The position numbers and the translations under genes are program-made. Shown here one piece after another: positions 1,440-42,619 of a stretch of 64,000 bases of DNA. Origin of the DNA: Dysidea avara (lineage: Eukaryota > Porifera > Demospongiae > Dictyoceratida > Dysideidae). Under the pieces are notes generated by a model. The model searched no databases, had not been told where the DNA came from, and saw only the letters and a list, made by a program, of their open reading frames with translations. The DNA lies in contig NC_089273.1 of assembly GCF_963678975.1 (NCBI RefSeq), positions 24,136,356-24,200,355 on the forward strand, given 5' to 3'. The first letter of the stretch is position 1. Every line of letters begins with the position of its first letter.

Positions 1440-2515
1440 TTTTAAAACTCAACTATTAGCTGACAAATTTTCAACTAGAGTAGGGACCATAGCACATTGA
1501 TAAAAGGTACTGAAACAAGCTGGAGTAGTGCACGATATTAAATCACAATAAAACAATACAAAGTGTTATATCCCTACTGTGCTCAAGACACCGTGCACTA
1601 CACCAGCTTGTTTCAGTACTTTATCTATGTGCTATGGTCCCTACTCTAGTCGAAAATTCCGATTTTTTTTCTGTGTAGTTGTTTGTTAACTTATTTTGTA
1701 AATAATTATCATAACTGGTGAACCCACACATACTGCATCTGAAATGGCGCTGTACACCCCAATTATCATCTGAAAAGTTACTTTTCGTTGTCAGCTATGT
1801 TCAACCTATTACTCAACATTTCGAATCAGGAACTGTTTGAAAAGCACCTCTGCAATCCACGCATACAAAAGGAAAGAAATGGTGCCACACGCTCCAGTTA
1901 TATCAGTTATAGCCTGAAATGTGAAGCATCCATTATGCTTCGTTGTCGACTACGTTCAACCCGTTACACAGCAGCACGAATCAAGAACTGTTGGAAAAGT
2001 ACTTCTGCAAATAAAATAGCCACTATGAAAAATACGGATGATTTCCATTATGAAGGGAAATCATCACTAACTACCACCAAATCAACACTTTTGCTGTCAA
2101 CAAAGATGAATGGTACACAAAGAAGGACACTGGTAAGTCCATGAAGAATACATTGTACATACTGCAGTATGCCAAAAGGCACCTGTTGGGCCAAAGCGAC
2201 GTCGAACAGTGAAAATTCCAGTCCATAGTCTTAGCCATTATCGAGTTACGCTTGTCTGAAGGCATCAGTCAGTTACTCAGTCAGTAATCACAGAAAATTC
2301 CATTAAAATTAATATTAAAAAATAAATAAATAAATTCCGTAGCAACTTGTTGAAAGCATTATGTGTTGATCTGAAAGCTTGTTTGGGCTTAGTTTTACCT
2401 AACCAATACCACCTCATCGTCATATGGCTGGATTTTGGGTGATGTTACTTCGTGAGCCACACCTACTCCTTTGTGGTCCCTACTATACAGCACTATCGTA
2501 CTGTATGATAGTATC
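1440..2515 (+). repeat. Dispersed repeat A, copy 1
   Basis: This stretch of about 1.05 kb is clearly homologous, in inverted orientation, to 37815-39790. Shared landmarks in order are the hairpin element at 1468-1658, a block around 1900-2150 (translating to ...STRYTAARIKNC...), the segment near 2160-2290 with GCCAAAAGGCACCT, the ACTGACTGAGTAACTGACT block, the CAACAAGTTGCTAC block near 2340, and ACCACAAAGGAGTAGGTGTG near 2460-2480. No intact transposase or reverse transcriptase is present, so it is probably a non-autonomous element. The open frames inside it are remnants or chance. Confidence 0.7.
1468..1658. mobile_element. Foldback/MITE within repeat A (copy 1)
   Basis: Inverted repeat. 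The left arm begins TTTTCAACTAGAGTAGGGAC and the right arm ends with its complement (GTCCCTACTCTAGTCGAAAA). Both arms carry GTACTGAAACAAGCTGG and GTAGTGCACG-like blocks around a short AT-rich centre. A second copy lies at 39520-39773. Confidence 0.75.
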
Positions 2516-7492: not shown

Positions 7493-10400
7493 TTACAAAA
7501 AAAAAGTGGACGCACGCCTGGTTTAAAAACTGCAGGGTCAAAATATTCTAATAGAACAGTAACCAAAAGTTTAAAAAGTGCACAGAAAATGTAAAAAAAA
7601 GTATAATCTTTTCCAGGGCTTAATCCAGGGACCTCCACACCTAACTGCCAAACCCTTTCCACTGAACCATTGTGGTCACCTGATCAAATCACTGCCTTAT
7701 ATTTCTTGTTCATTTGTGACAGTTTATAACTTAATAGATCAATCAATGGAAAGTCTATATTCTTCTAGAACTTTCTATGTGTGTTACATTAGAGGAAAAA
7801 AAGTACCTCCTTTTGGCCACACAGTCTGGCAACTAATTAGTTCAAGGACATCAAATGAAACCAAACACCAGACCAACACAGGAAGTCACAATATATGAGG
7901 AGTATGAATTTGGCCAATACATCAAGATGAATCACACTGGAATAAACACACAGTACTGCACTAGCTGAATGAATGGGAAGCTAGCACACATGCTTGTTTG
8001 CCAGTAAAATTAAGTTAACCAATACTATTATGGTGCTGCACCACTATATCACTAAAATAATGATGTGAAGCAGTACAATGGCTGGAATGATTGGCATAGA
8101 TGCACACCTCTCGCTACCAATGAATAAACTAGTTAGCAATGAATAAACTAGTTAGCAACGAATTAACCAAACATCAAGGCAGTAAAATCGTTCCTTGCAG
8201 CAGCCAATGTTAGCCTTGCCTTCTTGTTCCTTCTGTGTTACAAAAGGGCACCTTTGATTTGTCATGCCCCATAGTACAAATTAGTTAGAATACACCCTTT
8301 CAGTTTGTATCTGATTTGTAAAAAATCTGATTTGTAAACAACTCCACCCTCAGGCCTATGGCCCTTGGGTATATTGTTTACAAATCAGATACAAACCTCA
8401 TGGGTGTGTTACAACTACTACTTGTCTACACTCTAGATCTTCTACCAACTCAACTGTTTTAATTCATAGCTTTCGGCTGAAAATCTATAAACTATTTAGC
8501 CTGGCTTTAATTTTGACAAATACAGTACTAGCCTCCTGTGGTCATAAAGATTTTTTTTAAAAAGAGACTACTTCAGTATAAAAATACTGCTTTTCGGCAG
8601 TGCCCTCAATACATACATACATACATACATACATACATACATACGTACGTACAATAATTAAATAGACTACATCTACCTACACATATACAATTAGTACAAT
8701 GACTGATACAGGGTTTTGAATTGCTGAAGTTTCCTTGTTGCAAATAAGAGGATTTTAAATATTTTATACAATAAAGCATTTAACACCAGCTGCATAAAAC
8801 AATTATTACAATGCATGTCCATGAAAAGCAATTTAATAACTTCATAAAAGTATCACTAAGCAGTCGTCAGATTCATCTATAGCCCTGCATAACAATATTC
8901 TTACATACACATGCTAGTACTGCATATACAACTACAGTCCCATTTCTTACCGGGTTGTGCAGATCAATCCAGGTGTCTGTCTTGGACTCCACAAACTTTC
9001 CATTGATAAACATCTTGGTAGTGTCCGGCTAGTAACAGTATGAATCAACACCAAATTGTTTCAGTCATAAGCAATGGTACTTGTATATACAGTGGGCTGT
9101 TCTACTTCTCAACGGAACAATGATTTATAATGCATTATTGTTACTGGGTACTTGACAATTTGTATAGGTAATCCAGGGCTCTGCCCAGAAATTCCTGAGT
9201 GGTGGCCTAAAGTTAACATGAACTGATATGCTGTGTGTTATATTAGGGTATATTGCACATGTATTAGTGATATATGTAAGAATTGTACTGGTCGGATTTA
9301 AGAGGGTACTGGTCGGTTTTTAGAGGTACTGGTCACTTTGAACCACTGCCGACCAATGTGGGCAGAACCCTGGTAATCACACACATTTGAGTACAATTAG
9401 GGAATAATTGTATGAGTAACAGTCAAAATTACACGAGGCGAAGCCGAGTGCAATTTTGGCTGTTACGAGTACAATTATTCCATAATTGCACTCAAATGCG
9501 TGTGATTGCCTACTAATCACATAGTGACCACCCTTCATGGTTTGTAGTACACATCTATCCAGTTCTATGTGGCCATTAACTTCCACCAGGTGAATGCATC
9601 ATCCTTCTTTGTATCACATTATTTGTTGTTGCACTTAAAAGGCTTCACATGTCAGTAATTCTGGTTGGCTACTCAAAATGTCTACATATGTTGTACTTAA
9701 AAGGCTTCTATTTTGATCAGCTATTTATATCACTTTCTTGTTGCACTTAAAAGGCTTCTGTTATTTTGCTATTTCATTGGCTATTTTACAGTGCAATTAC
9801 AGAAACTAGGCCATGCGATTTGAGATTAATTGCACTCCTACTATTGGGACTAATGTATGGCAAACTAAATCACTATGTGATTAATGAGGTAAATCTTAAC
9901 AACGTAGATGTGATATGATATGATAGTTGTGATATGGAAGAACTGAAATATATGAGTAGCCGACTGCACTAGCTGTTACATAACAAGTCCAGTACGTTGG
10001 TGAACAACCCAGCTACACTGTTACAGGCTACCATGAATCTGGAAATGATTTGTAAGAGCAACCCTTTTATAATGGGGTGATTTGTACTAATAATCTGTTT
10101 GTCACAGATTTCTGCTCATCATGAGAACTACCAGTCCATCAGAACAAAACAAATACAACTTAATTGTATGATGATTGAGACTATTTAAATAAATTATTAT
10201 GTGTGACCATGACAATTACTCTAAGCCATACATCGGTAATTAGTGCATACATAAGGGTACATGAGAGGAGATGGATTCCATTAAAAAATATTATTTCTTT
10301 ACATAACTTGGCCATGTACAGTGTAGTCTGCTTATTTTTGGGAACAAATTATTAACAGTTGGTATTTGGAATTGTTAATATGGCTACAAGCTCTAGGATT

Positions 10401-16601: not shown

Positions 16602-19600
16602 CTAAAAGTTACAGTAGTTCAGTAATGTGAGAGAAGAAAGGATTCTTCTAATCATATGTTCACCGCCGCATTCAAATTCACATTCAGAAAAGTCCAAATG
16701 TTTTAAAGCAGAGTTTTTGAGAAGAGCTGATGCTATGCCAGCAGCTGCTTTGTTACTAATTATTGTGCAGCTTAAATCAAGATGTTCTAAGGTAGAAATT
16801 GACTGTAAAGCACTTGCAATATTTAGAAGTCCTTCTTCTTTTACTTTGCATTCAAAAAGTGATAAATGTATTAATGGTAAATGATGCTGAATTGCAAATG
16901 AGATTTCTTTTGCGGCTTCATTTGGAATGCAAATTGAATCTAAAATAAGAGTCTGAATAGAATAGGATTGCTGCAAACTAGTAGCTACCACTATCACCCC
17001 TTCTTGCTGTAATTTGGTTTTGGATAAATTGAGATAGGAGAGACAAGTGCAATTAGCAATGATAATTGCAAGAAACGTTGCTGTTTCATTATTTATAACA
17101 CAAGACTCCAAATTCAAATGTTGCAAAGATGTCATGCTAACGAGTGCAGACATAATAGCTTGACCATTTAATGCTGATAACACAGTCCAAGAAAAATTTA
17201 AGTATTTAATTGCACTACTTTTGATGGCTTTAGCAATTGCTACAGAATCTTGATAATCTATTGTATTGCTGCTTAAATCCAAAGAGTGCAAATTTAGTTT
17301 AGCACTAACTAAAGGATTAAATAGCTGCACAGATTTTATTTCTGTGTTTGCTAAATTCAAATAGTTTAAATTTTTATTGCAAAAACCAAGGTTTGCCATC
17401 TGCCTTGCGACCTCTTCATTAACCCTGTTTGATGCAATATCCAGATGCCGCAGTGTACTAATGCTATCGAATGCTTTCAATATTGCTAAAAATCCAGTTT
17501 CATTTATCCCACACTGTGCCACATTAAGATGCTCTAATTTTGTATTGCTTCTAATAGCAGCAGCTAAACATATAGCTACTTTGTCATTAATTGGGTTTAA
17601 TGATGCATTCAAGTATCTCAAATTTTTTGCTGCTTTAAACGCATTGAATAGAACAAGACTATCCTCTCCAGAAAAGCAGTTGGAAATATTCAAATGTTCC
17701 AGTGAATAATGACATTTTAAAGCAATAGCTATTCTTTCAGCAGCTTGTCTAGTAATCTTGATTTTGCTAATGTCAAGATGGCATAAAAATGTGAGATCAG
17801 TTAAAGAATCTCCAATAGTCTGAACTGCAACATCTTCCAAGTTGCAGTTGCTGATATTCAAATATTTTAAAGTATTCTTTGTATCACGTAAAAGATGTCC
17901 TATACTTATTGCAACACGAATACCTCTCAGGTAATTTTGACTAATATTTAAATGTTGCAAGGTAGAAAATTTATGCATTTTCACAAATTTTTCAATGTGC
18001 AATGCAGACAGACAACAGTTAGACATATTTAAATGCTGTAGTATGGTACTTTTACTAAAAAGAAATGCTAACTTTTGAGCTACATAGTCACTAATGACAT
18101 TTGACTCAATGTTGAAATACTTTAGCACATTAATTGACACCAGTCTATTCACAATTTGTTGTAAATGAGAACTCTTCAAGTGGCAATTTGATAAATCCAA
18201 GTGTTCCAACTTTGAGTAGTAAACAATAGATGCTAAAATACTTGTAGATGAAGAAATGCAGTTAGAACTCATGTTTAAGTATGTTAATGTCCCTATTTGA
18301 TTAAAAGCAAAAGTCTTAAGTGCTATCGAACTTGTGTTTAGTCTAAAGCAATTGGGAAGGTTCAATTTGTTGAGTGAACTATTAGCATCAATGACATCTC
18401 CTAACTTTGTAGCAGAAACATTGGTGACAATATTATTTCCTAGATCAAGGCTTATCAAAGTACTTATCTTTGACAGTGCATCAAATATCTTAACTATTCC
18501 AGTGTCTCGTAAGTTGCAACTATTTAAATTCAAGTGCTCCAATGACATGTTGTGGTTGATAATTGAAGCTACCTCAACAGCAGACTCATCATTAATAGTA
18601 TTATAACTCACATCAATATACTTTAGGCTTGATGTATTTCTGAGAGCCTTAGCTACAGTTTTTATAACTGATGTTGATAATTCACATTTAATCATGCTAA
18701 GGTGACACATAGATTGATAATTGTTGCAAAGTATCATCATATCTCTTGCAACATCATCAGTTATGTTACAACTTGCAATTTCCAGTATGTGAAGTGTACC
18801 ATTGATAAGTAATCCTTTTAACATTTTAATCACTAGGTTTAGATCAGCGCTTCCTGTAAATACAAATTCATACCTCCTCTTACACATTGACAAAATTCCA
18901 CTTAGTGTTGGAAGAGCTCTGAATATTGGTTTTACATATTCTTTAGGCCTTGACTGATCTTCTTTGTAGCTGACACAAGTAATATAGCAATTACTCTGTA
19001 GACTTCCATATTTTATGCTTTCTTGTTCAATGCACAGTGTACTACAATGCAATGTTTTAATGGTTCTTTCCATTTGCTGAAACTGATGAAGACTGTTACG
19101 GAAATATAATTTAGAATGGTGATTTATGTTATCAAATAAAATACATTCTGATTCCAATAAACAGTTTATCATCACAATATTTATCAAACTTTTTTGAGCA
19201 CTTTGCATATCATAGTGGTAAGTAGAAGTGATAGATAAGTTGTATAATACTACAGTAACAGAATCAGTGTTAAACAATGTTGACTTATGAGGTTGGTGTG
19301 CTTCTGGTGAATTCACCTGTACAGTTGTAATAGCATCTAACAGGTCTATATCAGTTAGCTCATTGTCACAGAAATTTATTTCAGATACTTTACAAATTAT
19401 AATTATTTCAGCAATAAGTACGGCTGACCCTGCTTGTAATTTATTGTGTGATAGATTCAATGATGTAATAGTAGACTTATTATTCTTCAAAGATTGTAAC
19501 ATCACATAAATCTCATTATATCTTATACCGCAACCAGAGAAATCTATCACTTTCCACTGTCTGTAGACATTTGATAAAATCAAGGTAAGCTCATCATTTA

Positions 19601-20798
19601 TTAAAGGATTGTCACAATCAATTAACTGCCACTGATCAATAGGTAAATTTTCTAGTATATTTTTTACTAAACAGTGATCTAAACAATTGCCATATAACCT
19701 ATTTTCTGTCATACAAATGTAGGCAATTTTCTGTTTTAAATGCTCACCAAGCTTTTGACAGACTTTAAAAACACAGGCATCTCTTAAGCGTGGTTCAATC
19801 ATATACACTGCAAGATTTTCAGTATGCATATTAAAGCTTTGGAAAATTGTATCTTTGTCAAACAAAATAATACCTTGGAAACAATAAAATGAGCATTTTG
19901 TTATGTGATATTCAACAATAATTGATCTAAGAAAAGTAACCTGATTATCAATGATGCAATTTCCTAACAGAACTGAAGAAACCATTTTCCCACCTACTTT
20001 GTTAATGATAACCAGTGGAATTCCAAGATCTAAATTGAGAATCTTTTTTCCACTATAATAATCATTTATAATTGAATTTATTATTGCTTTCTTATGAATT
20101 TTATTGTCGCATACTATTAGTATTTTTATAATAGTATGTTTCATAGCATTGATGATACAACTGGTACTATCTGATGTGACTTGATTGCTTGAAATATCTA
20201 GTTTCTTTATGCAGTTAGGCAGAATTTGCACAGAAAGTAATAACTCGCAAAACAAGTTACACAATTTATCTGTTAGCTCACACCTATCAATAGTTAGACT
20301 GCCACAGTGCATCAGTTTCTCGCATAGTGCTGGTCCTATAGTACATTGATCCTTTGTGAAGAGCACACATTGTGACAATTCAATTGTTGCTAGACTATCA
20401 CCAGTAGTTTGCAATGCTTTGAGTAACAGATCTTGTTCCATGCTAAATGCAAATAAATTTGTACTCGAGCTTATTATGTATCGAATTTTCTTTTTGAAAC
20501 TTTTGAGGTAATGGATAAACTTAACTGCTGTTGCATTAGAACGACCTACCTCAAATAAGGTAATGCTGACACCCAGATCTTCTTTCAGTATGGAAACAAC
20601 AGTTTTCAAAGTTTGCAAGTCCAAACAGTTGGAAATAAAGAGTTCATGTATAGGATACTTATCACATAGCAATTTACAAAATGACTTGGAAAGATTGTAT
20701 TTTTGTAGACATGCCTGTGATAGTATGTCCCAAGAGTTCATCTTCAGAGCAGATTTACTGTAGTCTGTTGTTTTAATAGCAACTATTTTTATTCCTAT
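16602..20798 (-). CDS. NLR locus, C-terminal LRR segment (about 1,379 codons from ATG 20741)
   Basis: Long intronless open frame. An ATG lies at 20741, but the frame is already open to the MITE edge near 20798, so this may not be a true start. The first 450 or so residues continue the super-repeat seen upstream (signature ILNLDLGIPLVIINKVGG near 20013, a VIDFSGCGI unit). From about residue 690 to the end, 25 or so tandem 28-residue LRRs of the ribonuclease-inhibitor class alternate between an EHLNLSNC-like and a KYLDIS-N-I-NDE-A-like type, a 56-residue double repeat. It ends in a natural stop after LLNYCNF. There is no transmembrane segment or signal peptide. Role inferred: ligand-sensing or autoinhibitory LRR tail of an NLR. 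It could also be an independent LRR-only gene, because its frame does not join the upstream segment even when the MITE is removed. Confidence 0.85.
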   Translation of the reverse strand: MGIKIVAIKTTDYSKSALKMNSWDILSQACLQKYNLSKSFCKLLCDKYPIHELFISNCLDLQTLKTVVSILKEDLGVSITLFEVGRSNATAVKFIHYLKSFKKKIRYIISSSTNLFAFSMEQDLLLKALQTTGDSLATIELSQCVLFTKDQCTIGPALCEKLMHCGSLTIDRCELTDKLCNLFCELLLSVQILPNCIKKLDISSNQVTSDSTSCIINAMKHTIIKILIVCDNKIHKKAIINSIINDYYSGKKILNLDLGIPLVIINKVGGKMVSSVLLGNCIIDNQVTFLRSIIVEYHITKCSFYCFQGIILFDKDTIFQSFNMHTENLAVYMIEPRLRDACVFKVCQKLGEHLKQKIAYICMTENRLYGNCLDHCLVKNILENLPIDQWQLIDCDNPLINDELTLILSNVYRQWKVIDFSGCGIRYNEIYVMLQSLKNNKSTITSLNLSHNKLQAGSAVLIAEIIIICKVSEINFCDNELTDIDLLDAITTVQVNSPEAHQPHKSTLFNTDSVTVVLYNLSITSTYHYDMQSAQKSLINIVMINCLLESECILFDNINHHSKLYFRNSLHQFQQMERTIKTLHCSTLCIEQESIKYGSLQSNCYITCVSYKEDQSRPKEYVKPIFRALPTLSGILSMCKRRYEFVFTGSADLNLVIKMLKGLLINGTLHILEIASCNITDDVARDMMILCNNYQSMCHLSMIKCELSTSVIKTVAKALRNTSSLKYIDVSYNTINDESAVEVASIINHNMSLEHLNLNSCNLRDTGIVKIFDALSKISTLISLDLGNNIVTNVSATKLGDVIDANSSLNKLNLPNCFRLNTSSIALKTFAFNQIGTLTYLNMSSNCISSSTSILASIVYYSKLEHLDLSNCHLKSSHLQQIVNRLVSINVLKYFNIESNVISDYVAQKLAFLFSKSTILQHLNMSNCCLSALHIEKFVKMHKFSTLQHLNISQNYLRGIRVAISIGHLLRDTKNTLKYLNISNCNLEDVAVQTIGDSLTDLTFLCHLDISKIKITRQAAERIAIALKCHYSLEHLNISNCFSGEDSLVLFNAFKAAKNLRYLNASLNPINDKVAICLAAAIRSNTKLEHLNVAQCGINETGFLAILKAFDSISTLRHLDIASNRVNEEVARQMANLGFCNKNLNYLNLANTEIKSVQLFNPLVSAKLNLHSLDLSSNTIDYQDSVAIAKAIKSSAIKYLNFSWTVLSALNGQAIMSALVSMTSLQHLNLESCVINNETATFLAIIIANCTCLSYLNLSKTKLQQEGVIVVATSLQQSYSIQTLILDSICIPNEAAKEISFAIQHHLPLIHLSLFECKVKEEGLLNIASALQSISTLEHLDLSCTIISNKAAAGIASALLKNSALKHLDFSECEFECGGEHMIRRILSSLTLLNYCNF

Positions 20799-20799
20799 A

Positions 20800-21036
20800 T
20801 GTGACCCGGTCTGCGAAAAGGGCTCTTATAGCCTTTCCAATTATCCATGTTTGGCTAATCGTAACTCTTAATCTACTAAAGCTATCACCATGTAATTACA
20901 CCCACAGCTACTGCCAGGTTAGGGTTGTTGAGTGACCAAATTGTAGGCTTGTACCATATTCACCAGTCAAGTTATGGGTTACCATATATATGCAATTGGA
21001 AAGGCTATAAGAGCCCTTTTCGCAGACTGGGTCACA
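20800..21036. mobile_element. 237-bp MITE between two LRR segments
   Basis: Terminal inverted repeats of about 46 bp, TGTGACCCGGTCTGCGAAAA and its near-perfect complement, flanked by TATA on both sides (20796-20799 and 21037-21040). A TA or TATA duplication suggests a Tc1/mariner-type or related origin, which is inferred. The 636-codon LRR segment terminates inside its end. A TGTGACCGGATTTGC fragment at about 53222 resembles its tip. Confidence 0.8.
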
Positions 21037-22966
21037 TATAACAATTCAACAGCTTTAGTTTTGATAAACGTTTAATGTTCACAGCATGCTCAAAATCATC
21101 ACATGTGATCATTATTTTACCCTTTTCACAAATCATTTTAGTTGAATAGGATTTGGAGAATTGCAGTAATGTCATTTGCAGTTCTACAACATTCCACACA
21201 ATATGCTTCTTGTTGGCATGTAAAATAAAAAGTATATTGTTTACTGCCTCTGCAGTGTTACACGTGGAGAAACACAATACCTTTGTTTGAGATTCTGCAT
21301 ACCTTTTTGCAATTCTAATAAATTCAATAATCACATCGTTATCTAAAATTTTATTTCTAACAGCGGCTTCACACCTTTGATTTGCACACTTCCATCTTGG
21401 AAAAAGAACTGAAACCTGATCCATTTCTTGTTTTATAATTAAACCACCAGCATGAATACAATTCTCATCATCAGCAATAAACTTTGAAATATGTGAAGAG
21501 CAGATTAGTTCTCCTGATTGTGACTTAAAGGACTCTGACACAACATGTTGAGTATGACTACTATAAATTGTCTCATTTACAATTAATGGAATTTTATGAA
21601 CAAAATTTCTAATCTTTTTATCTGTGCAAATAATTTCATTTGTTAACGTGGAATTCCTACTTACCACTGTTCTCCTGTAAGAACATATCAGCTTATTAAT
21701 AACACAGTAATGTAATAATTTGGTAAGAGTTGTGATGCAGGAAGATGTCAAAGCATTTCTTGTCAAATTAAGTTCATTAATGTAAATTTCCTTTTTCTTA
21801 CTGAAAATTTCTTCACAAAGAATCCTACAGCCTTCATTTCCTATATTGCACCCTGACAGATCAATAGTATTCCACATTCTTGAATTGTCAATGTTTTTCA
21901 ATATCAACATAGTTAATGCATAGTTACTCGGTTTCAAAGTATTTATTGATTGATTATTTTGCAACAATGCTGAAATGAAGTCACTATTTTTTGCATTAGA
22001 AATCAACATTGATTTTGACACTAATATAAATCTAATGTTCTTCATTATGCGCTTAGCATTTATAAGCTTAATAACTTTACTGATTTCATTATCCGTCAAA
22101 TTAGCATTGCACATAATAATTTCATCAATATTAGAATGATTCATTAGTGTCATCAAAGCATTATCTAAATCACACTGCAAAATATTGCAGTTCAGTATAT
22201 ATAATGTATATTTAGAAATATTGTAATCAGACAAATCTTCAAAGAGCGATCCAATGTATTCAGAAATGTTTATTCTATTTACAATAAAAACTGCTGCACA
22301 ATTTTGTATACTTTTTGATGAAGAGCTCAGATTGTTTAGAACGACCAAGGGTGTTTGTGATACAATACAAGTCAATGTATCATTGCCTTTGTGATATTCT
22401 GTAAGAATCAAGTCATCAATGTTCTTACTCCAACTTGTAATACACCTGATTACAATTCTTTTAATACTTTGATGCTGAATGTTAAAACTTATGTCAAAGT
22501 ATGAGATCATAAAGTCATTTGATGCAAACTTCAAATTATTTTTTAATGTTTGAACCCTGAAGTGATCATAGAAAATTGAGTTAAACAGTATATTATACAC
22601 ATTCAGTTTGTCATTAGATGAAGTAGTGATGCATTGAGCAAAGGGTGTCACCTTGTGATGAAATGTTGGTTGGAAAAAAAGTGAAAAGATTATATCTGCT
22701 AACATCTCATTTTCAACACCTACAATAAGGGCAGCGATATTGAAAACTTGACCATCAAATACACTAGACGCTATATTAATTATTTCAGTAGTTTTGTCAT
22801 CTACAAGGAAAAACTCATAGAAGTTACCCTTATAATCTAACATTGAGAGCTCCATGACTTGCTCAGTCAATAAGTGCTTTAACAAGTATACACTGTAAAC
22901 ATTATTTGTGTTGTCTCCAAGAGTAGTGCCTCTATTGACCAACAGTGGAATTTTATGCTTAAAGTT
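21032..22966 (-). CDS. NLR locus, LRR super-repeat segment 3
   Basis: Open frame of about 640 codons. It begins inside a repeat unit: its first codons complete the NF-K-H-K-IPL signature begun in the preceding frame, showing a single-base frameshift at about 22966-22970 rather than a new gene. The nominal first codon (22942) is TTG, not ATG. Units visible are one short unit with TPLVVLNN near 22346 and one full unit with MWNTIDLSGCNIGNEGC, YINELNLTRNALTS and NFVHKIPLIVNE near 21588. The terminal part (WNVVELQMTLL, IKRLSKLKLLNCY) is cut by the MITE, whose TGA is used as stop. Predicted LRR solenoid, cytosolic. Confidence 0.8.
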   Translation of the reverse strand, partial: NFKHKIPLLVNRGTTLGDNTNNVYSVYLLKHLLTEQVMELSMLDYKGNFYEFFLVDDKTTEIINIASSVFDGQVFNIAALIVGVENEMLADIIFSLFFQPTFHHKVTPFAQCITTSSNDKLNVYNILFNSIFYDHFRVQTLKNNLKFASNDFMISYFDISFNIQHQSIKRIVIRCITSWSKNIDDLILTEYHKGNDTLTCIVSQTPLVVLNNLSSSSKSIQNCAAVFIVNRINISEYIGSLFEDLSDYNISKYTLYILNCNILQCDLDNALMTLMNHSNIDEIIMCNANLTDNEISKVIKLINAKRIMKNIRFILVSKSMLISNAKNSDFISALLQNNQSINTLKPSNYALTMLILKNIDNSRMWNTIDLSGCNIGNEGCRILCEEIFSKKKEIYINELNLTRNALTSSCITTLTKLLHYCVINKLICSYRRTVVSRNSTLTNEIICTDKKIRNFVHKIPLIVNETIYSSHTQHVVSESFKSQSGELICSSHISKFIADDENCIHAGGLIIKQEMDQVSVLFPRWKCANQRCEAAVRNKILDNDVIIEFIRIAKRYAESQTKVLCFSTCNTAEAVNNILFILHANKKHIVWNVVELQMTLLQFSKSYSTKMICEKGKIMITCDDFEHAVNIKRLSKLKLLNCYM

Positions 22967-25900
22967 ACAAAATAATGTTTTTGTATGAATGGTAGCGAAG
23001 CTGCAACAATTTCATGAAATTGTCTGTCAAATTTTGTGTTATAATTAGATTTTCAATAACACAATGGGTTAGTAAATCAATGAAAATCACAACTGACACT
23101 GATGTCAACATGTTGCAAGACAGATTCAAAACTTTTATATAACTGGTTTTACCACATTTAGAAAAACATTCGCAAAATATTTCCATTCCTGTGTCACCAA
23201 TTTTACATCCTGATAAATCGATAGTGTTCCAATAGTTTGAGTGACTAACAAAGACATTTTTAAGCTGGGATATTTGAATATCACAGTTAACTACAGAAAA
23301 AGAATTAATTGCTGGTTTACACTGCATTATTGCAGAAATGACTTGAGCGTTTGAAATGTTGGAAAATAGTTTTGTAGCTGACACAAAAACGTAATTTGTC
23401 TGTAATCTAGAATGATCTTTTAGAAGTTCAACTATTGTCTGTGCTACGTCATCTTCCAAATCAATCAAACACAGAGCAATTTTAATACAAGAATCAAATA
23501 AATTGTACTTTGGTAATGTACATGTATACAACACATTTTTGAGTTCATTTGTCATCACCTTACTCTTAAGAATATACAACGTATGAGCAGAAATTTTAGA
23601 ATCCGATGAATCAGAAACAGTTTTCATTAGCTTACACAGACATTCATCAACTTCATTGCTGTTTATGAGGATTGATGCATACCATTGCTCTGATGATCTA
23701 ACATGATTCATTAAAACTAGTGGAATGCTTAGATTCAAGTTGAGCAGTGGTGCTCCAGTACAAAATTGTTTAAGAATAACATCAGCAACCATGTTGTCCA
23801 GCTTAAGAGAGCTGTGTATCACCAGCTTTTGGATGGTGCAATGTTGAAGATATTGGGTGATTAAGTTATCTATGTCAATACATTGAGAAGATAATTTTAA
23901 AATTCTAACATGTTTTATTGAACATTTATTACCAAGAAAAGTAAACAATGCAACCCTTTTAATAGCAGCATGGCATGTCAAAAGATCAAACACATCCAAA
24001 GATGTCATTTTATTATGAATTTTAAGGCAACACAATTGTTGCAAGCACCAAGTAATCAAAGGTAAACTTTCAGCACTTTCAAAGACTGAGTTAACTTTTA
24101 ATAATGAATTTTTTAGCAGCACTTTAAACACAGTAGATAATTCCTTCTTTTCATCCAAGACAATAATTTCATATGCTTGTCCATCTTTATCTAACAAACA
24201 TGGTAGCAGATCATTTTCATTAGGCTCATAATTTACTAGATAGATGTTGTAAATATTAGTTGTGTTATTCACATCTGATCTGTTGATCACCAGAGGAATT
24301 CCACGCTTAAAATTAGCAATACTTTGAAAGGATTGGCGATGATCATGTAGTAGTTTTGTAAAACTGTTGTCTCTAATAAAATTATCTAATAGTATCAACT
24401 TCTCAATAATACAAAATTGAAGTATTTTAAGGATATGATAAATGGAGCTTACAGTTAAAGAGTTGTTTGACAAATTTAGCACCTTAATATGCACTGCGTT
24501 AGTGAATAATGAATTGTTTTCACTAATAATTTTAATGATTTTATCTTCCATTTTACACCCAGATAGATCAATATTGTGCCAAACTCTTGAAACAGTGCTA
24601 AATCCACCAATTATTTGTCCAATTTCAAAATTGTCATTAGACACAGTTAAATCCACTATTGAAGGATTTTCATTTATTGCTGTAGCAAATAATTGCTCAT
24701 TAGATGTGTCAGCAAATATTTTAGTTGCAGAAGTTATAAGATATTCAAGTTTTAATGTTCTCTGTAATTCTTTAAGGTACCTATAAAGTGTGACCACTGC
24801 TACATCACACAGGTTGGTCTCCAGTATGAAAACACGTGCATAATTATGTACCAAGTAATGAAATAATGAGAGATCACTCTTTGGCAAATCACTTAGCATA
24901 ACATGGCTATTCAAGAGAAACAGTTCATAATGAGCATCATCAAATATTCTAAAACCTCCCAAAAAATTGCATGCATTTTTGTTATTTAAATCAAATTTTT
25001 TAAGGAAGACAGAAGCAAACAATTTGTCCTGTTCAGCACAATTGTTTACAACTACTAATGGAATATCTAAGACAAAATTCTGAATGCTCATTCCACCATA
25101 ATGATACGCTGTGAGGACATATTGTTCAAATCCCTGAATGCCACTATGAGAAATAATCAGTGTTTCAATAACACAGTTGCACAAGCAATCAAGAATAGTA
25201 GTAGGTTTGAGGAAATTGTGGGAAAAATCTAATTCTTTAAGAAAGTTTATTGCACTTTGGTTTGAGAACAAAACTCTGCAAACATTTTGAAACATAATAT
25301 TGTTCAGTTTATAGCAGCATATTTTTAGATTCCTTATGTATTTGCATTTAATAGAGATTGTGGCTAGTTCATAGTAGTTAACAATGGTACAGTTCACTAT
25401 TTCCAATGTTAATATTGATGGACAATTTTCTAAAACTTGTAATAGTTTATGTTGATGTACCCCATAAGCAATCAATTTTTTTTGATTAAAAAGTATAAAA
25501 TCAACATTTCTTTTAAGAGTTGGTAATTTTATCAGCAATTCAACCAAAAGCATATCACAAACTCCATTCTCAAATATGGATATTTCGTGAAAGTCATTGC
25601 TTAGAAGAAGCTGGCAATCATGCACATTGCTGATACAAAAAGAATTTATAATTACAAGCTTATTTGCTGGTGCAGGATGGCAGATTCTTTGGCTTGTTTC
25701 AGTTGTAATTTTACAGTTGACCAAATAGCTAATTGAATGTACTGAGTCGCATGCTATGCTATTCTCTGAGTGGATAGATGTACAGTGGTTTATTATGGTT
25801 AATGGAATTCCATTATTGAAATTAAGTATGTTGTTTTTAAGTACTCCACATTTCAGTTTGTTAAAAACATAACCAGATGAAGAAATTTTAATCATTTCAA

Positions 25901-28900
25901 AGTGGCAGAATTCCAAGGACTTTATTAATGGATGCAAACAAGATACTGTCAATACATTTCCTGAACAATCCAGCTCTTTGATATAATGTAAATGTTCCCC
26001 ACTAAAGAAAGACTGACATGTGGTAGTACATAATTTATATCCAATCAAACATGATGAAATATCAATTTTCTTAATTTGATTACTTTTGCCAGAATAATTA
26101 AGTCTTGTCAGCTTTGTAATAACATTTACAGCTTTCTCACTCAATATAAAGCTGTCTTGAACTACACGAAGAATAATGTCCTGATTTGTATATAAAACTG
26201 CAAAGCTATTTTCCAGTCTGTGAAATATTCTGTTTGTAAAATAAACATTGAATAGCTGCATATCTGAATCAAACAGTGATTCAAATTCTTCATCGATCAA
26301 TGCAAGTGATGTAGTATAGATGTCACATAGTAAATGTTGCTCAATTCTGTGTACTGATGAATACATTTTAAATTGTGGATTGTGTTTCCTTAAATTAGTC
26401 CCAATAATAACCAGTGGAACTCCAAGTTTAAAATTAAGAATTTCCTTACCATTGTCAAATTCTGCAATCATATGTCTTGTAAAATCATATCCAGTCCAGC
26501 TGTTATTGGAGATTATTAGTTTCTTAAGAACACCATAATTAAGTGCACCAATTATGGAAACAACAGAAGCTGTGGTTAGTTGAGTGTTGGACAAATTTAG
26601 CACTTCAAAGTAGTTTTCACCTTTATAGTAAGACCACCATTCACAAAGAACTTTGCAACCTTTGTCACCTAAATTACACCCAGAGAGATCAAGTGTATTC
26701 CATCTTCTTGAAATGGACCACATCAGTGCATCTTTAAATCGGTGTTCTAAATTGCTACACTGAGATATTAGCAAGTGATCAATCGATAAGTTATTTGTTA
26801 GTACCGTAGTAACCAATTGATCACAATGTAAGTTGGTTATCACCCTTTTGTCAGAAACCATGACATATTGAACGCATTTTTCCTTTTCTTTTTTTATAAA
26901 GAGAGCAAAATCTGTGATTTGTTGACTGGTTAAATTTGCTTCATATAAAATAAAGTTGAAATTGTCAGGTAGTTGACAGCAAATATTTGATAAGTCATTT
27001 ACGTTTGAAATCATATTTACAAAACAAACCCTAATTTTGCAATCTGTTAGTTGATGAATCACGTTATTAATGTCACTTTCTTTGATTTCATCCAATTTAA
27101 GAAAAGCTGTACTAACAGCTTGTGGTGATTCCCTTAATCCTTGCACATTATTTAGAATAATTAATGGGATTCCATGAAGTAAGTTTTGTATTTTGAGCCC
27201 AGCATATATTTCAGTGAGGATACCCTCAATTACAGAATCATTATTAATAAAATTGTTTGAAATATCAAGCTTTTCAATGACACAGTATTGTAATGCCTTG
27301 GTAATTTCCTTCAAGCAAAACAGTCCATTATCTGAAATATTTAAAAGCTTGATGTATGATATTACACTTGTGCTAGAAAATACACTATTAGATAACGTTT
27401 GGAAGTGGTTTTCATTTAAACCACATTTGCATACATGGAGTTTCCTTAGTGCTTTAAATTTATTTGACATATAATCTTCGATTTCATAAATCACATCTTC
27501 AGGAATATCACAATCAGTTATTTCAACTGTAAAAACACATTCAGGATTACAAAGTTGAAGAGCTTTAATAATGTGATGATGTGCTACTCTAAACACGAAC
27601 ACTTGTGTGCTGGACAACAGTAAACATCTAATTCTGTTAGGATACAATTGAATAGGAATAATAATTTTTGTTAGGCCATCTTCTGAATTATCAAATACAC
27701 CAACAGCACAAAAAGGATTTGAATGTAAAAATGACACAATATCATCTAGTCGATTTGAGGTAAGGAAATTAAAGCATATGATTTCCTGAATGAGACAGTT
27801 ACTTTCTGATAAAGCACACGACAGCTCATCCAAGTTATTAATTAGTTTGTAGTTGCTGACATAAACAGTTGCAGTCATTTCCAATTCCTGCAGTTCTACT
27901 TCAGTGACAGCTAAGCCTTTAGTGTTATTAATAACCATCAGTGAAATACCTGTAGAAAAGTTACGAATCAGTTTCTCGGCAAAGTAGTATGATATCATGA
28001 TGTCTTTAATTTTCGTGTACATGTTTTCATTGGAAATAATCAGCTTTTCAACACTACAAGAAATTAGAAGTTTATTAAAAATATCAAGAAATGCTGACGT
28101 AAGAGGGTGATTTGATATGTCCAGTTCTTTAATATGTTTCAGCTGACTGGATTTGCCAAAGAGTGATTCATAAAGGAATTCACAATCATCATCTTTAATG
28201 TTGCTTTTAGACATGTCAAGAACATTAATACTTGTCTTATTCCTAATCATAGTGAAAATTATCTCCTGAACAACATCATCAATAATACCCGATTTAAAAG
28301 AAATAATTCTGATTTTGGATTTGGAAATGTTATTCTCAACTGAAAAGACCGCATCAAATTTATTTTTCATAGCAAAAATATCACAAAATAGCTCAGTGCT
28401 GATCATGAAGTAATCCAAATTATTACCAATTGTAGAAGAGCCACTTGGTACATAGATAGCTACATAATCAAATCCTGGAGTACTGGAGTTACTGACTGCA
28501 GAATGAATTGACATTGGAATTTTCAATTCAAAGTTTACTAGTTTGTCAAAGTATGAAGAAAGTGATTCATTGAAAGCCTCAATATTTATAGGGACTGGTG
28601 AAATAACAAGCTTTTTAACACTGCAAATTTGGAGTAGCTTAATAAAAGTGATTGCAGATTCTAATGTCAAACAGCTGTAGCCAATGTCTAACTTATTAAT
28701 GTGAATCCTACATTTCTTCAGTGAAAAGCATTCACAAATAGTTTTAAGTCCCTCATTTTTTATGCTGCTTCCTGACAGATCAATAGTATCCCAGACATTT
28801 CTATTACTTTCTGAAAAGAAGGTACAAAGCTCTGATATTTGAATACCACAATTCCTTATTTGAACATAATTAACAGTTGAAGCGCAATGTCGTAATCCTT

Positions 28901-29190
28901 CAGTAATTTGAACTTCATTGGCTCTAAATGCCATTAATTTTGTGTTGCCTGTCAATACAAAAGTGTGATTACTATTATTACCATCATTAAGACTATCTGC
29001 TAATGTCTGCACAGTGCTGTCTTGTAAATTGGACTGAAATATGTGAATTGTAGTGAATGAATTTTTGCAAAGCTGTAAAAGTTCACATATAATTTCTTCA
29101 TCTTTAAAAGTATTATTGAAAAGGAAAATATTATCATGTACCACGGTAGTGGTATCATGTACCACGGTAGTGGTACATAATAGGGATCAG
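22965..29190 (-). CDS. NLR locus, LRR super-repeat segment 2 (about 2,070 codons)
   Basis: 6.2 kb without an intron or stop. It holds about nine super-repeat units. A typical unit reads W-x-T-I-DLSGC-x-I-G-D-x-G, then I-K-x-LNLS-x-N-x-LT, then C-x-I-E-K-L-I-I-S, then a Tyr/Gly-containing stretch and the signature I-L-N-F-x3-I-P-L-V-I-I-N, followed by a more variable region with a SATKLFA or SNKRVI-like strand. Signatures sit near 28513, 27939, 27168, 26414, 25804, 25077, 24292 and 23727; spacing alternates loosely between about 570-610 and 730-785 bp. There is no ATG start: the first in-frame codon after the stop is within a tandem 20-bp duplication (29145-29185). The frame ends at 22965 by a one-base shift. 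The segment is preceded by about 1 kb of non-LRR sequence, so its link to the NACHT exon is inferred from order and repeat type. Confidence 0.85.
29145..29185. repeat. Tandem 20-bp duplication at LRR segment edge
   Basis: Two exact adjacent copies of ATCATGTACCACGGTAGTGG, each itself partly palindromic (TACCACGGTAGTGGTA), at the 5' boundary of the long LRR frame. It is followed by AATAGGGATCA, which also occurs near 30182 in the foldback element. Confidence 0.8.
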
Positions 29191-29472
29191 GCAGAAATTT
29201 TTCAAAACACTCTAATAGAACGCACGCCAAAAGCAGCCTTCCGGGCTTTAGATTTTATTTCTAAAACATTCTAGACCTTTCTTTTGTGTTTACAACACTA
29301 GCCAACAAGTATTAAAAGTAAGGGAAATGGTTTTAGGTGTTTTTAAAAATTTTGAAAATGGTTAGATTCTCCATCTTCTTTCTTTCTTCTTTCTTGTTTC
29401 GCGCGCCTACAGCTCGTAGGAAGTAGATATCAGCCCTAAAAACGTATGGCGTATTTAAAAAAACATTCTTAC

Positions 29473-29553
29473 CCAGGTCTGTGTGGTATTAAAATCTTCC
29501 CTCTCTAATGCGATTGCGAGATATAGAGCAAGAATCACTCTTCGAGACGCCAT
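29473..29553 (-). CDS. Candidate first coding exon, family unknown
   Basis: An ATG (29553) opens 27 codons, MASRRVILALYLAIALERED then FNTTQTW, ending exactly at a TGG|GTAAGA donor. The local base composition is more GC-rich than its surroundings. The mildly hydrophobic, Arg-flanked stretch could be a signal anchor or part of a transposon protein. No second exon could be assigned with confidence; a TTTTAG acceptor at about 29270 leads into a frame that stops. It may be a start for a gene including the long LRR frame, or chance. Confidence 0.22.
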
Positions 29554-30141
29554 TCGATCGAGAAGCCATACAGATGATAATATAGAATTGTTTAAAATTC
29601 CATTGCTTTAGCTCACAGGACTAAAATGCATCAAGTTGTATCACACTAAACATTAAACATAACTATTGTTCACTGAAACTCGGGTTTTAGACTTCCTTCA
29701 TTACGAGACAGTGAAGGGGGTGTGGCCCGCACCTCGTCACTTAAACTATTACTGTACGCCTTTCGTGTATACTTTCTATTATATTCTTCAGCTGTTTACC
29801 AGCTAAGAGTCGACATAACAAGGCTTGTAAGCTATTGGAACACACTGGTAAATTTCGAATTGAAAAGGGGTGTGTCCCTTCCGTACGCGATTGAAAAATA
29901 AAAAGCGGGATACTCCGTATACTCAGCACTTTAATTGGAGTCGACCACGTTTTGTCAAGCGTGTGTTGAAGAGGAAGAGGACAATGATTAAACTTAATTA
30001 TGTAATTGTTTATTAAACTTATTTATGTAATTGTTTATTGCCAGTTGATATTACAATGGGTTTCTTTATTAAACAATCATGTACTGTTGAACGTATATTT
30101 AAGAAGTAGTCCATGTGCATGGACATGAAAAAAATCATGAA

Positions 30142-30526
30142 ACTAGTGGGGCAAAAAAATTATTAATTTTCAACAAGTAGAATAGGGATCAAAGATTTGA
30201 TTTTGAAAAAAACTGCGTAAACAAGAAGTAATAGGGATGATAATCCACAAAATTCTATGCATCATCAGTTCAAAGCAAGTTATTTGAATAGTGTACACTC
30301 AATTTGCGATTCCTATTTCAACTTGTGGTTAAATTTTGTTAAAATGTTGAAATAGGAATCGCAAATTGAGTGTACACTATTCAAATAACTTGCTTTGAAC
30401 TGATGATGCATAGAATTTTGTGGATTATCATCCCTATTACTTCTTGTTTACGCAGTTTTTTTCAAAATCAAATCTTTGATCCCTATTCTACTTGTTGAAA
30501 ATTAATAATTTTTTTGCCCCACTAGT
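30142..30526. mobile_element. 385-bp foldback element in the LRR region
   Basis: Near-perfect inverted repeat with arms of about 180 bp. Ends are ACTAGTGGGGCAAAAAAATT and its complement; inner blocks include AATAGGGATCAAAG, GATGATAATCCACAAAATTC and AGTGTACACTCAATTTGCGA, around a 24-bp spacer. The LRR frame coming from the NACHT side enters the right end and stops at once, so the element truncates that frame. No coding capacity. Confidence 0.85.
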
Positions 30527-30700
30527 ACAAAATACTGGTGTCTTTAAAGTTGATTGCTGAATGCAATAATGACCTGTTCATTTCACAATTAACTAAGAAC
30601 ACATTAGTAAACAAAGAGGAACCCTTTGGTGTAGACTCATCAACAAAGTCATTTAATATTGTTAATGGTGTTTTATTCTTGAAATTAAAAAAAATTACTT
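30522..30700 (-). CDS. NLR LRR segment 1, continuation after frameshift
   Basis: About 57 codons continuing the preceding LRR frame: NFKNKTPLTILND supplies the repeat signature, then FLVNCEMNRSLLHSA as in the variable part of other units. The frame change sits in a run of eight T on the coding strand (about 30690-30697); one T fewer would make both frames continuous. The frame ends in the foldback element. Confidence 0.75.
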
Positions 30701-31877
30701 TCAACATTGATCTTGGCTAAAATAGCATCACACAATATCTTGTTAGGAATTGTATTATTTTTCACATTAAGATGCTTTATCAAGCAATGTTCAAGGGTCT
30801 CCAATATTGTGTTCAAGGCTGAATTAGTTGGGTTGCACTGTGAGATGTCAAAAACATCGAAGAAAAGATTTTGGTTTTGTTCTGTCATACATGAAATGAG
30901 TACTTTAAAATTTTCATCACCAATTTTGCAGTTCATTAATTTGATAGTTACTAAATCATCAATTTGATTAGCATGATGCTGCATTAAAAAATATTTGCAT
31001 GCTTGGGATACTTTTTGCATATTAGAGTTATATGCTAACAGTTTCGTTTTGGACTGCAGGATATATTCAATGTTAACTAACGTGCCTTTAGCAATAAATT
31101 TTTGAAGTCCTGATGAGATTTCAGAGGCAGCATGATCTTGCAAGTCAGTTTCGTACACACTCACTAAACTGAAATTAGCAAAAATATAACCAATTACCAC
31201 TGGAAGATCATTAAGTTGAAAACCGGAATTCCAGAAGTAGAGACTACAGTCACCATTTGTAGCACATAAAAGTTTCATATCTTCCTTCCTATTAAATTTG
31301 GTGTAGATGAAATAAAAACTTGATTTAAAATTGAGGATTTTTTCAACATGAATTTTTGTAGCTCTCTGTACAGTAACATACTTGGCAAACACAATATCGT
31401 CAAATGCTTGATAAGTGATGGTATTACTGCCTACAGCTAATCGTTCTACTTTAAGAGTGTAGCAAAGATCAATGATTTTGTCAATCACTGAAGATGTTAA
31501 GTGATTGAAGGACAAGTTTATATATTTGATTGATATTTTTGTTTCAGTATTTCCTGTGCATATCCTATGGAATTCCCCTAGACCATTGTCTCCTATGTAA
31601 CACCTTGATAAATTCAGTGAATTCCAAGTTTTTGTTGCTGATTGTGTAAGAAAGAAGCAAAAAGTGTAAACATCACTGAGCAACAATGCATTTCCACTGA
31701 GATCAATACTATTCTCTGACAAATAGCTTCCAACAAGTTGCACCAAATGATCGTCACCTGTTTCCAAGAAACATTGAAATAAGTGAAGACAACTCACCTT
31801 GTTGCTTAAGGTTTCCTGTGCTATATTTGCAGTGCCTAAAACTTTGCTAGCTAAAACAGACTTACGTCCAGACAATT
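30685..31877 (-). CDS. NLR LRR segment 1 (post-NACHT linker and first LRR units)
   Basis: About 397 codons. It opens with LSGRKSV, apparently the direct continuation of HFL in the NACHT frame, through a one-base offset at about 31876. It then reads VSCLHLFQCFLETGDD, a linker helix typical of sponge NLRs between NACHT and LRR, SENSIDLSGNALLLSDV, and the first LRR unit (WNSLNLSRCYIGDNG, YINLSFNHLTSS). A second unit ends near the T8 run. The nominal first codon (31875) is TTG. Family knowledge says this region caps the LRR; the function of this copy is not tested. Confidence 0.85.
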
Positions 31878-38893: not shown

Positions 38894-39519
38894 TGATGAC
38901 TTCAGACAAGCATAACTTGATAATGGCTGAGGCTACGGGTTTGATATTTTCACTGTTTGACATCACTTCGACCAAAGAGGTGCCTTTTGGAATACTGCAG
39001 TACTTACAATGCATTCTTCATGGACTTGCCAGTGTCCTCTTTTCAGTTCTTTGTGTTCCATTATTTTTTTCTGGCAGCAAAAAGTGTTGATTTGGCAATA
39101 GCATGTGATGGCTTCTGAAGTTGTCCGTACTTTTCATATATAGTGGCTGTTTTGATGGCAGTGGTGCTTTTCGGACAGTTCTTGATTCGTACTGCTGTGT
39201 AACGGGTTGAAAACAGCCGACAACAAAGTGTAATGGATACTTCACTTTTCAGACAATAATTGATATAACTGGGATGTGCGGCACCATTTCTTTCCGTATG
39301 CATGGATTGCAAAGGTGCTTTCCAAGCAGTTCTAGATCCAAAATGCTGTGCAATTGGTTGAGCATAGCTGACAACAAAGCGTAATGGATACTTCACTTTT
39401 CAGATGATAATAGATATAGGGGGTACGTGGTGCCATTTCAGATGCAGTATGTATAGGTTCACCAGTCACCATAATTATTTACAAAAAAAGTTAACAAAAC
39501 ACTACACAAAAAAATTTGG

Positions 39520-41743: not shown

Positions 41744-42275
41744 TAAACATTACACACAACTTTTAGTCTTTGATTCACTCCCTCTGCAACATACAGGACT
41801 CTGTTATGATCCAACGCCATTCCCAGAATACTATAAAATTCTCCAAGTTGAGAACCTTTGTTGCCAAATTGTACTATCAACTGATGATCAGAGTTCCATA
41901 CTTTGATCTTATCATCATCACCATCACTATTAGCTATGATGTAACCATCTGGAGTAAGGATAATACCCCCATGGTCTAAGGCATTCTATTTTACTGATGT
42001 AAGAGCCAGTGTGGCTGAACAGTTGAATACAATTACCATGCAGGTCACTGACTGCACCATTGTCAACATCAACAGCTATTGTAACAGGATATTGAAACTG
42101 TCCTGGGGCATCACCTTCACCACCAAACGAAAACATAAAAATGCCACCTTGTTGAAATACCTGTACTCTAAAATTGTCACTGTCTACAACAAACAATTTG
42201 TTATCACTACTGAAGGCCAATCCCATTGGACAATTGAACTGCCCATCTTTACTACCTCTTATGCTGACTGCTGAT
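41744..42275 (-). pseudogene. NHL-repeat protein fragment (TRIM-like C-terminus)
   Basis: Reads AVSIRGSKDGQFNCPMGLAF, DNKLFVVDSDNFRVQVF, FSFGGEGDAPGQFQYP and NCIQLFSHTGSYISKI. After a one-base shift in a GGGG run near 41975 it continues PWGIILTPDGYIIANS, KIKVWNSDHQLIVQFG, GEFYSILGMALDH and VLYVAEGVNQRL, ending at a natural stop near 41744. These are successive NHL beta-propeller blades, as in RING/B-box/NHL proteins. A possible acceptor (TTTTTATCAG) at about 42272 would make it a last exon. No RING, B-box or upstream exon was found. The frameshift suggests a pseudogene or an assembly indel. Confidence 0.75.
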
Positions 42276-42619
42276 AAAAATTTTCCTTGCAGAGCTCCTT
42301 ATAGCCATTGATTTACAAGCCTGTTCAGCTGTTTCTTGCCTTCGTTCATTCACTTTGTCAGTCACATCAAAGTACATAATAATTATTATTATGCACTGAT
42401 TTCACTGGCGGTGAATTAATACACAATTGACCATGCTTGAATGGCTTCATACCATGGCACTCCCTGATACATAGTTAGCTATATGTTTTGGTCTTAAAAG
42501 ATTGGGTGTGTTAACCATTAACCAGTGTTTACATGTTAGATTTTACCTACTAATTAGATATCTATACAGATAATTATTATTGTTGTTCTGGTTTTTATAA
42601 TTACATTTTAAACACAATG

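Follow-up and report, generated by a model that had tools for sequence, protein, structure and literature searches.

In the 64,000-nucleotide stretch of the Dysidea avara genome analyzed here (contig NC_089273.1, positions 24,136,356 to 24,200,355; hereafter the window), a gene-like region on the minus strand, 33,097-16,605, encodes a NACHT domain followed by some 15 compound units and, last, an ordinary leucine-rich repeat (LRR) tail. The region falls into five open reading frames (ORFs), which lie in differing frames or are separated by inserted DNA (Table 1). The NACHT domain was recognized by Pfam PF05729, and the C-terminal LRRs in ORF5 scored above the cut-offs of LRR_6, LRR_1 and LRR_4, so that the designation of the locus as an NLR in a first-pass annotation of this DNA was borne out. 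From 33,043, where the part matched by the relative begins, to 16,608, the window is colinear with a single open frame of 5,880 codons about 139 kb away from the gene-like region (hereafter G24), the tail in the window being the shorter. We consider it probable that the window holds a broken member (a pseudogene) of a subfamily of giant Death-domain NLRs, whose LRR solenoid grew by internal block duplication and then largely kept its unit order.

Table 1. Parts of the receptor-like gene and its lesions, in positions of the window (aa, amino acid positions of G24; MITE, miniature inverted-repeat transposable element).
Feature	Position	Strand	Evidence and remarks
NACHT ORF, 411 codons	31863..33097	-	Pfam PF05729, E 1.4e-20; colinear with G24 aa 183-568, 66% identity
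ORF2, helical/LRR start plus the first 1.5 units, out of frame with NACHT ORF	30686..31875	-	G24 aa 570-972, 48% identity
ORF3, 2,073 codons, nine units of short and long type	22968..29186	-	Signature spacing; G24 aa 1020-3085, 35% identity
ORF4, 659 codons, more units, frame-shifted relative to ORF3	21035..23011	-	One unit by profile, the rest by alignment only; G24 aa 3080-3747, 30% identity
ORF5, 1,407 codons, last two units and ordinary LRR tail	16605..20825	-	LRR_6, E 1.5e-27; G24 aa 3749-5153, 28% identity, and aa 5147-5879, 37% identity
Frame break between NACHT ORF and ORF2	31862..31875	-	Frame reading; G24 alignment
Frame break within a signature, in a T run	30685..30716	-	The window copy, L032 and L033 all differ at the site
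Inserted DNA, about 1.39 kb	29135..30525	.	Missing from both near copies that span the site (L032, L033)
Frame break at a signature, ORF3/ORF4	22965..23011	-	Not in L032 and L034
MITE-like element, stop-bearing	20791..21045	.	76-nt inverted repeats, 82% complementary; G24 uninterrupted there (aa 3747 to 3749)

The first-pass annotation had listed 13 positions of an N-F-x3-I-P-L signature, and all of them are present. A relaxed pattern, drawn up once the list of positions was known, picked out twelve of them, and alignment of the units gave the thirteenth (near 22,346). On the minus strand between 12 and 40 kb, the relaxed pattern gave 14 matches, two of which lie elsewhere. The strict pattern NF-x3-[IV]-P-[LM] gave seven matches in the six frames of the whole 64 kb, all at listed positions, while 0.045 would be expected by chance per 16.5-kb strand in shuffled sequence. 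Chance periodicity of the signatures was therefore ruled out.

The compound super-repeat is also real. Within ORF3, consecutive signatures are separated by 191, 259, 250, 204, 248, 255 and 191 residues, giving long units of about 250 and short units of about 190-204 residues; the gap of about 55 residues between them would correspond to two LRR lengths. The nine ORF3 units, which are 17-27% identical to the first, were combined into a profile (A1) that found 14 units in the window above 15 bits, one of them in two pieces, and two further units in ORF4 were recognizable by alignment only. The interval originally assigned to the repeats, 19,950 to 30,700, does contain them, but its end points did not hold, since A1 units also occur in ORF2 (31,875-30,686) and in ORF5 past 19,950. 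By eye, the first unit junction, at about 31350-31290 (minus strand), has no separate IPL strand (ILNFKSSFYFIYTKFN), and the same is seen in G24 and in a second giant relative, C15. This fact suggests that the strand is dispensable.

Nature of the unit and of its signature strand

The unit profile matched ribonuclease inhibitor best (E 2.1e-14), and also NLRP1, NOD2 and CARMIL. Each unit had been described as carrying a regular non-LRR insert after every few repeats. A profile of the signature and the following segment only (A6, 146 positions) matched ribonuclease inhibitor (E 2.7e-5) and the LRRs of NLRP9, NLRP3 and NOD2, all inside positions 17-131. By profile, the supposed insert is mostly divergent LRR of the ribonuclease-inhibitor type, and these matches rule out an insert that is non-LRR throughout. 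Positions 1-16 of A6, the ILNF-x3-IPLVIIN strand, had no LRR match and are too short a stretch to class either way; LRR profiles left unmatched only this strand and the first part of the variable loop behind it. The loop is among the most length-variable segments of the unit (mean 21, standard deviation 8.7, n 21). Pfam detected neither an LRR nor a credible family in the insert segments.

Two AlphaFold2 models had predicted local distance difference test scores of 75.4 and 80.2, and a strand-turn-strand was predicted at the signature, which may leave room for a small spur. The predicted strands are spaced by 29, 25, 39, 16, 29, 24, 28, 32, 24, 30, 27, 40 and 14 residues, and the irregular pairs, 39/16 and 40/14, fall at the signatures. 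Both the beta-alpha repeats of about 28 residues and the profile similarity to ribonuclease inhibitor that characterize this LRR type were found. The profiles and models support, but do not prove, a unit made up of about 8-9 LRRs of the ribonuclease-inhibitor type, with a strand-loop-strand irregularity where ILNF-x3-IPLVIIN lies. Ribonuclease inhibitor itself is a single horseshoe of 15-16 LRRs and is not known to have a higher-order repeat of such length.

It could be argued that a short LRR block alternates with a small STAS-like alpha/beta domain, the inserts being genuine non-LRR domains along the receptor. A weak fold match downstream of the signature does resemble STAS. This resemblance has no sequence counterpart, no STAS match being found up to E 10, and we regard such an alternation as quite unlikely.

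Counts of an LRR motif were compared with the maximum of 200 shuffles. They exceeded it in the G24 units (73 versus 54), the G24 tail (46 versus 24) and window ORF3 (37 versus 33), and equaled it in the C15 units (46 and 46). By arithmetic from its length, rather than by a count, G24 would hold LRRs on the order of 190. ORF3 reached only 19.7 bits with LRR_6 against a cut-off of 23.4, and all Pfam LRR models stayed under their cut-offs there.

Giant relatives and decay of the window copy

A search with ORF3 of the genome to which the window belongs (550.8 Mb in 108 contigs), in which 23 of 343 candidates were scored, found at least 48 matching pieces. The open frames that contain such pieces include those of 5,880 (G24, at C2:23,996,447-24,014,086), 5,635 (C15, from C15:10,085,123 on), 5,115 (C2e, at C2:24.78 Mb), 3,442, 3,057 and 2,824 codons. 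We inspected the whole of G24, the C15 gene over 5,625 codons and the first 3,211 codons of C2e; in the relatives, the single frame was seen as an open frame in the DNA. The length of G24 runs from stop to stop, its start codon being unproven. Its frame encodes, in order, a Death domain (PF00531, 23.7 bits against a cut-off of 22.6), a NACHT domain (75.8 bits), 16 unit-profile hits above 15 bits and an LRR tail above the cut-offs of the same three LRR models as ORF5. The spacing of its signatures is 246, 199, 263, 252, 210, 249, 245 and 196 residues. With the composition of the region itself, the odds of 5,880 open codons arising by chance are about 10^-205. PF05729 was above its cut-off in G24 and C2e as well as in the window.

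Smaller NLRs of 2,298-2,603 codons, at five of 11 large-frame loci, have two or three units and a half unit followed by an LRR tail. Of the remaining six loci, four matched the units in part, and in the other two the matches were weak and scattered. By eye, other NACHT genes (L009-L014, L023, L024, L027, L028) are single frames of 1,769-3,137 codons with different starts and partial or weak units. The short loci L001-L008 end 1.5 kb past NACHT, so that any following units would lie beyond their reach. Genome-wide, there were at least 105 NACHT hits. Among the relatives, the Death domain was above cut-off in the three-unit gene C12 and below it in C5, and the Pfam scan, which did not cover C15, listed none for C4, C2b and C2e. 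A single peptide pattern derived from an alignment restricted to same-type unit rows (A3) matched three stretches in prokaryote contigs, none of which encodes a relative; one pattern carries little weight. An NCBIfam scan returned nothing relevant.

These frames bear on the suggestion that the segments form one protein of nearly 5,000 residues. The suggestion agrees with the relatives, whose frames of 5,115-5,880 codons are uninterrupted, but not with the window copy, which is broken. Nothing in the window matched G24 aa 1-182, the part with the Death domain, at a credible level. Of the NLRD features, the window copy therefore lacks both the N-terminal Death domain and a single frame for all domains. 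The frame breaks, the insertions and the missing Death counterpart rule out a single protein of this size from the window itself, and most likely the window copy makes no functional receptor.

The upstream end of the 1.39-kb insertion is a perfect inverted repeat of 181 nt (30,142-30,322 and 30,346-30,526). A short tandem/inverted TACCACTACCGTGGTACATGATA repeat lies at 29132-29182, exactly at the edge of the insertion. One may ask whether the breaks are sequencing or assembly errors in an intact gene, as the break in the T run could indicate. This is very unlikely in our view, since two of the lesions are inserted elements with inverted repeats, one of them with empty sites in two relatives, and the Death domain is missing altogether. 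The frame-breaking indels that the near copies L032 and L033 carry occur at sites other than those of the window, except for the T run near 30,690, at which all three copies differ. The copies therefore appear to have decayed separately. One near copy, L033/L034 (G000:C2:23922288-23926474 and 23974128-23979530), is apparently interrupted by about 48 kb; the 3' portion sits in a 3,442-codon open frame, and the two portions presumably belong to one gene.

The ratio of nonsynonymous to synonymous substitution rates (dN/dS) between ORF3 and three near copies was 0.44 (2,048 codons), 0.375 (1,399) and 0.449 (672), with dS of 0.07-0.08. For these comparisons, each frame between two breaks was aligned separately, and pieces of less than 80% identity were left out. 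In a neutral simulation with random substitutions of the same types, the observed synonymous count was reached in 1, 0 and 103 of 1000 runs, respectively, which indicates purifying selection in two of the three comparisons, the third not being significant. The aligned codons contained no stops, against 9.6, 6.7 and 3.8 expected. Of the seven pieces of these copies, four hold one stop where they run past a break. For the ORF2 piece compared with L032 (81 codons), dN/dS was 1.24 on three synonymous changes, too few to use. The low dN/dS and the scarcity of stops suggest that the sequences were under constraint during much of their divergence.

These results also bear on whether the entire giant subfamily is decaying and without a product, its long frames being relics. 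The private frame-breaking indels in the window gene and in each near copy, together with the apparently split copy, would fit such a history. It is nevertheless quite improbable, given three uninterrupted frames of more than 5,000 codons, the negligible odds of the longest arising by chance and dN/dS below 1.

The insert had further been proposed as a ligand-contact module. Among close copies, changes were found in 20 of 302 codon comparisons at the signature and in 256 of 3,498 elsewhere (p 0.73), but these copies are themselves broken. A hypervariable contact site at the signature was rejected, as there was no excess of change.

Amplification, proposed function and known systems

The order of the units was analyzed with a tree of 65 half-units over 117 columns, in which 26 of 62 inner branches were well supported. 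Eight of 14 window half-units were sister to the G24 unit of the same rank, and two more shared a small clade with it (one including the long-branched G24_u13, the other C15 and C2e units). Two paired with a G24 unit of different rank, and two were left without a clear placement. All 11 C2e half-units paired with C15 units in conserved order, and there are two additional ones in C15. The units at either end, the first and the last, clustered with those of the two- to three-unit NLRs. Taken together, we infer that the interior units were amplified by duplication within the gene from a two- or three-unit layout still found in smaller NLRs, and that most of the unit order was then conserved for long. 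The C15/C2e pair and the window/G24 pair seem to have undergone amplification in part independently.

In an intact member, the long solenoid might keep the NACHT ATPase off, bind ligands, or both. Ligand binding would then let NACHT, as the switch, oligomerize, and the Death domain would recruit a death-fold partner. A more specific version is that, in intracellular receptors approaching 5,900 residues, some 15 strand-loop-strand spurs, or else small STAS-like domains, follow one another along the solenoid in a largely fixed order and with variable loop length, so that a single receptor offers many separately evolving contact sites; we hold this to be rather unlikely. It is also unlikely that the giants are structural scaffolds or rulers instead of microbial sensors, using the NACHT-LRR layout for assembly as mammalian NLRPs do in egg lattices. 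Chains of the oocyte cytoplasmic lattice and the subcortical maternal complex were among the fold matches, and the unit order is largely conserved. The Death domain of G24, however, indicates death-fold signaling, and the abundance of NACHT hits resembles the NLR expansion reported for a sponge (PMC12909245).

If expressed, the giant frames would be by far the longest NLRs of which we know, and they would make it testable how far an NLR solenoid can lengthen and yet stay switchable by NACHT. NLRC5, the largest NLR according to PMC7922096, likewise has a long LRR region. The human protein has 1,866 residues with 20 LRRs, and the frames in the sponge exceed it in length about threefold. The survey of sponge NLRD and NLRX genes in a 575-Mb, 15-chromosome demosponge genome describes a large NLR expansion, groups NLRX by LRR number (2-4, 7-22 and 15-30) and names an "RPT, internal repeat" among the domains in a figure legend (PMC12909245). 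The Death-NACHT-LRR and NACHT-LRR layouts are common to that survey and to the present genes, whereas no super-repeat was found in its accessible sections. In window ORF3 and in G24 (over the first 3,332 residues counted from NACHT), the unit regions stay under the Pfam LRR cut-offs, whereas that of C2e exceeds them; this suggests that Pfam-based surveys may undercount LRRs here. LRR super-motifs and islands in tomato Cf-2/Cf-5 and in BRI1 are similar in that LRR blocks were duplicated as a unit, with an irregular stretch between blocks. According to PMC4030839, however, a pair of LRRs makes up the Cf-2/Cf-5 super-motif, and a single island is usual among the plant receptors considered; the sponge block of 8-9 LRRs recurs about 15 times, with an irregular stretch in most units. 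Open-access PMC literature on NLRs, sponges, giant NLRs, LRR super-motifs and the Dysidea genome contained, in the titles and opening lines of abstracts, no giant sponge NLR super-repeat, which does not prove absence.

Outside the gene, a short NHL-repeat-like ORF was seen by eye at 41930-42298 (minus strand), and downstream of a different unit-bearing NLR, in L016, there is also a RING/NHL-like ORF (near 9179-10000). The ORFs at 1743-2144 (plus strand) and 39061-39399 (minus strand) have RSTRYTAARIKNC-like sequence in common by eye, and probably belong to a dispersed repeat family.
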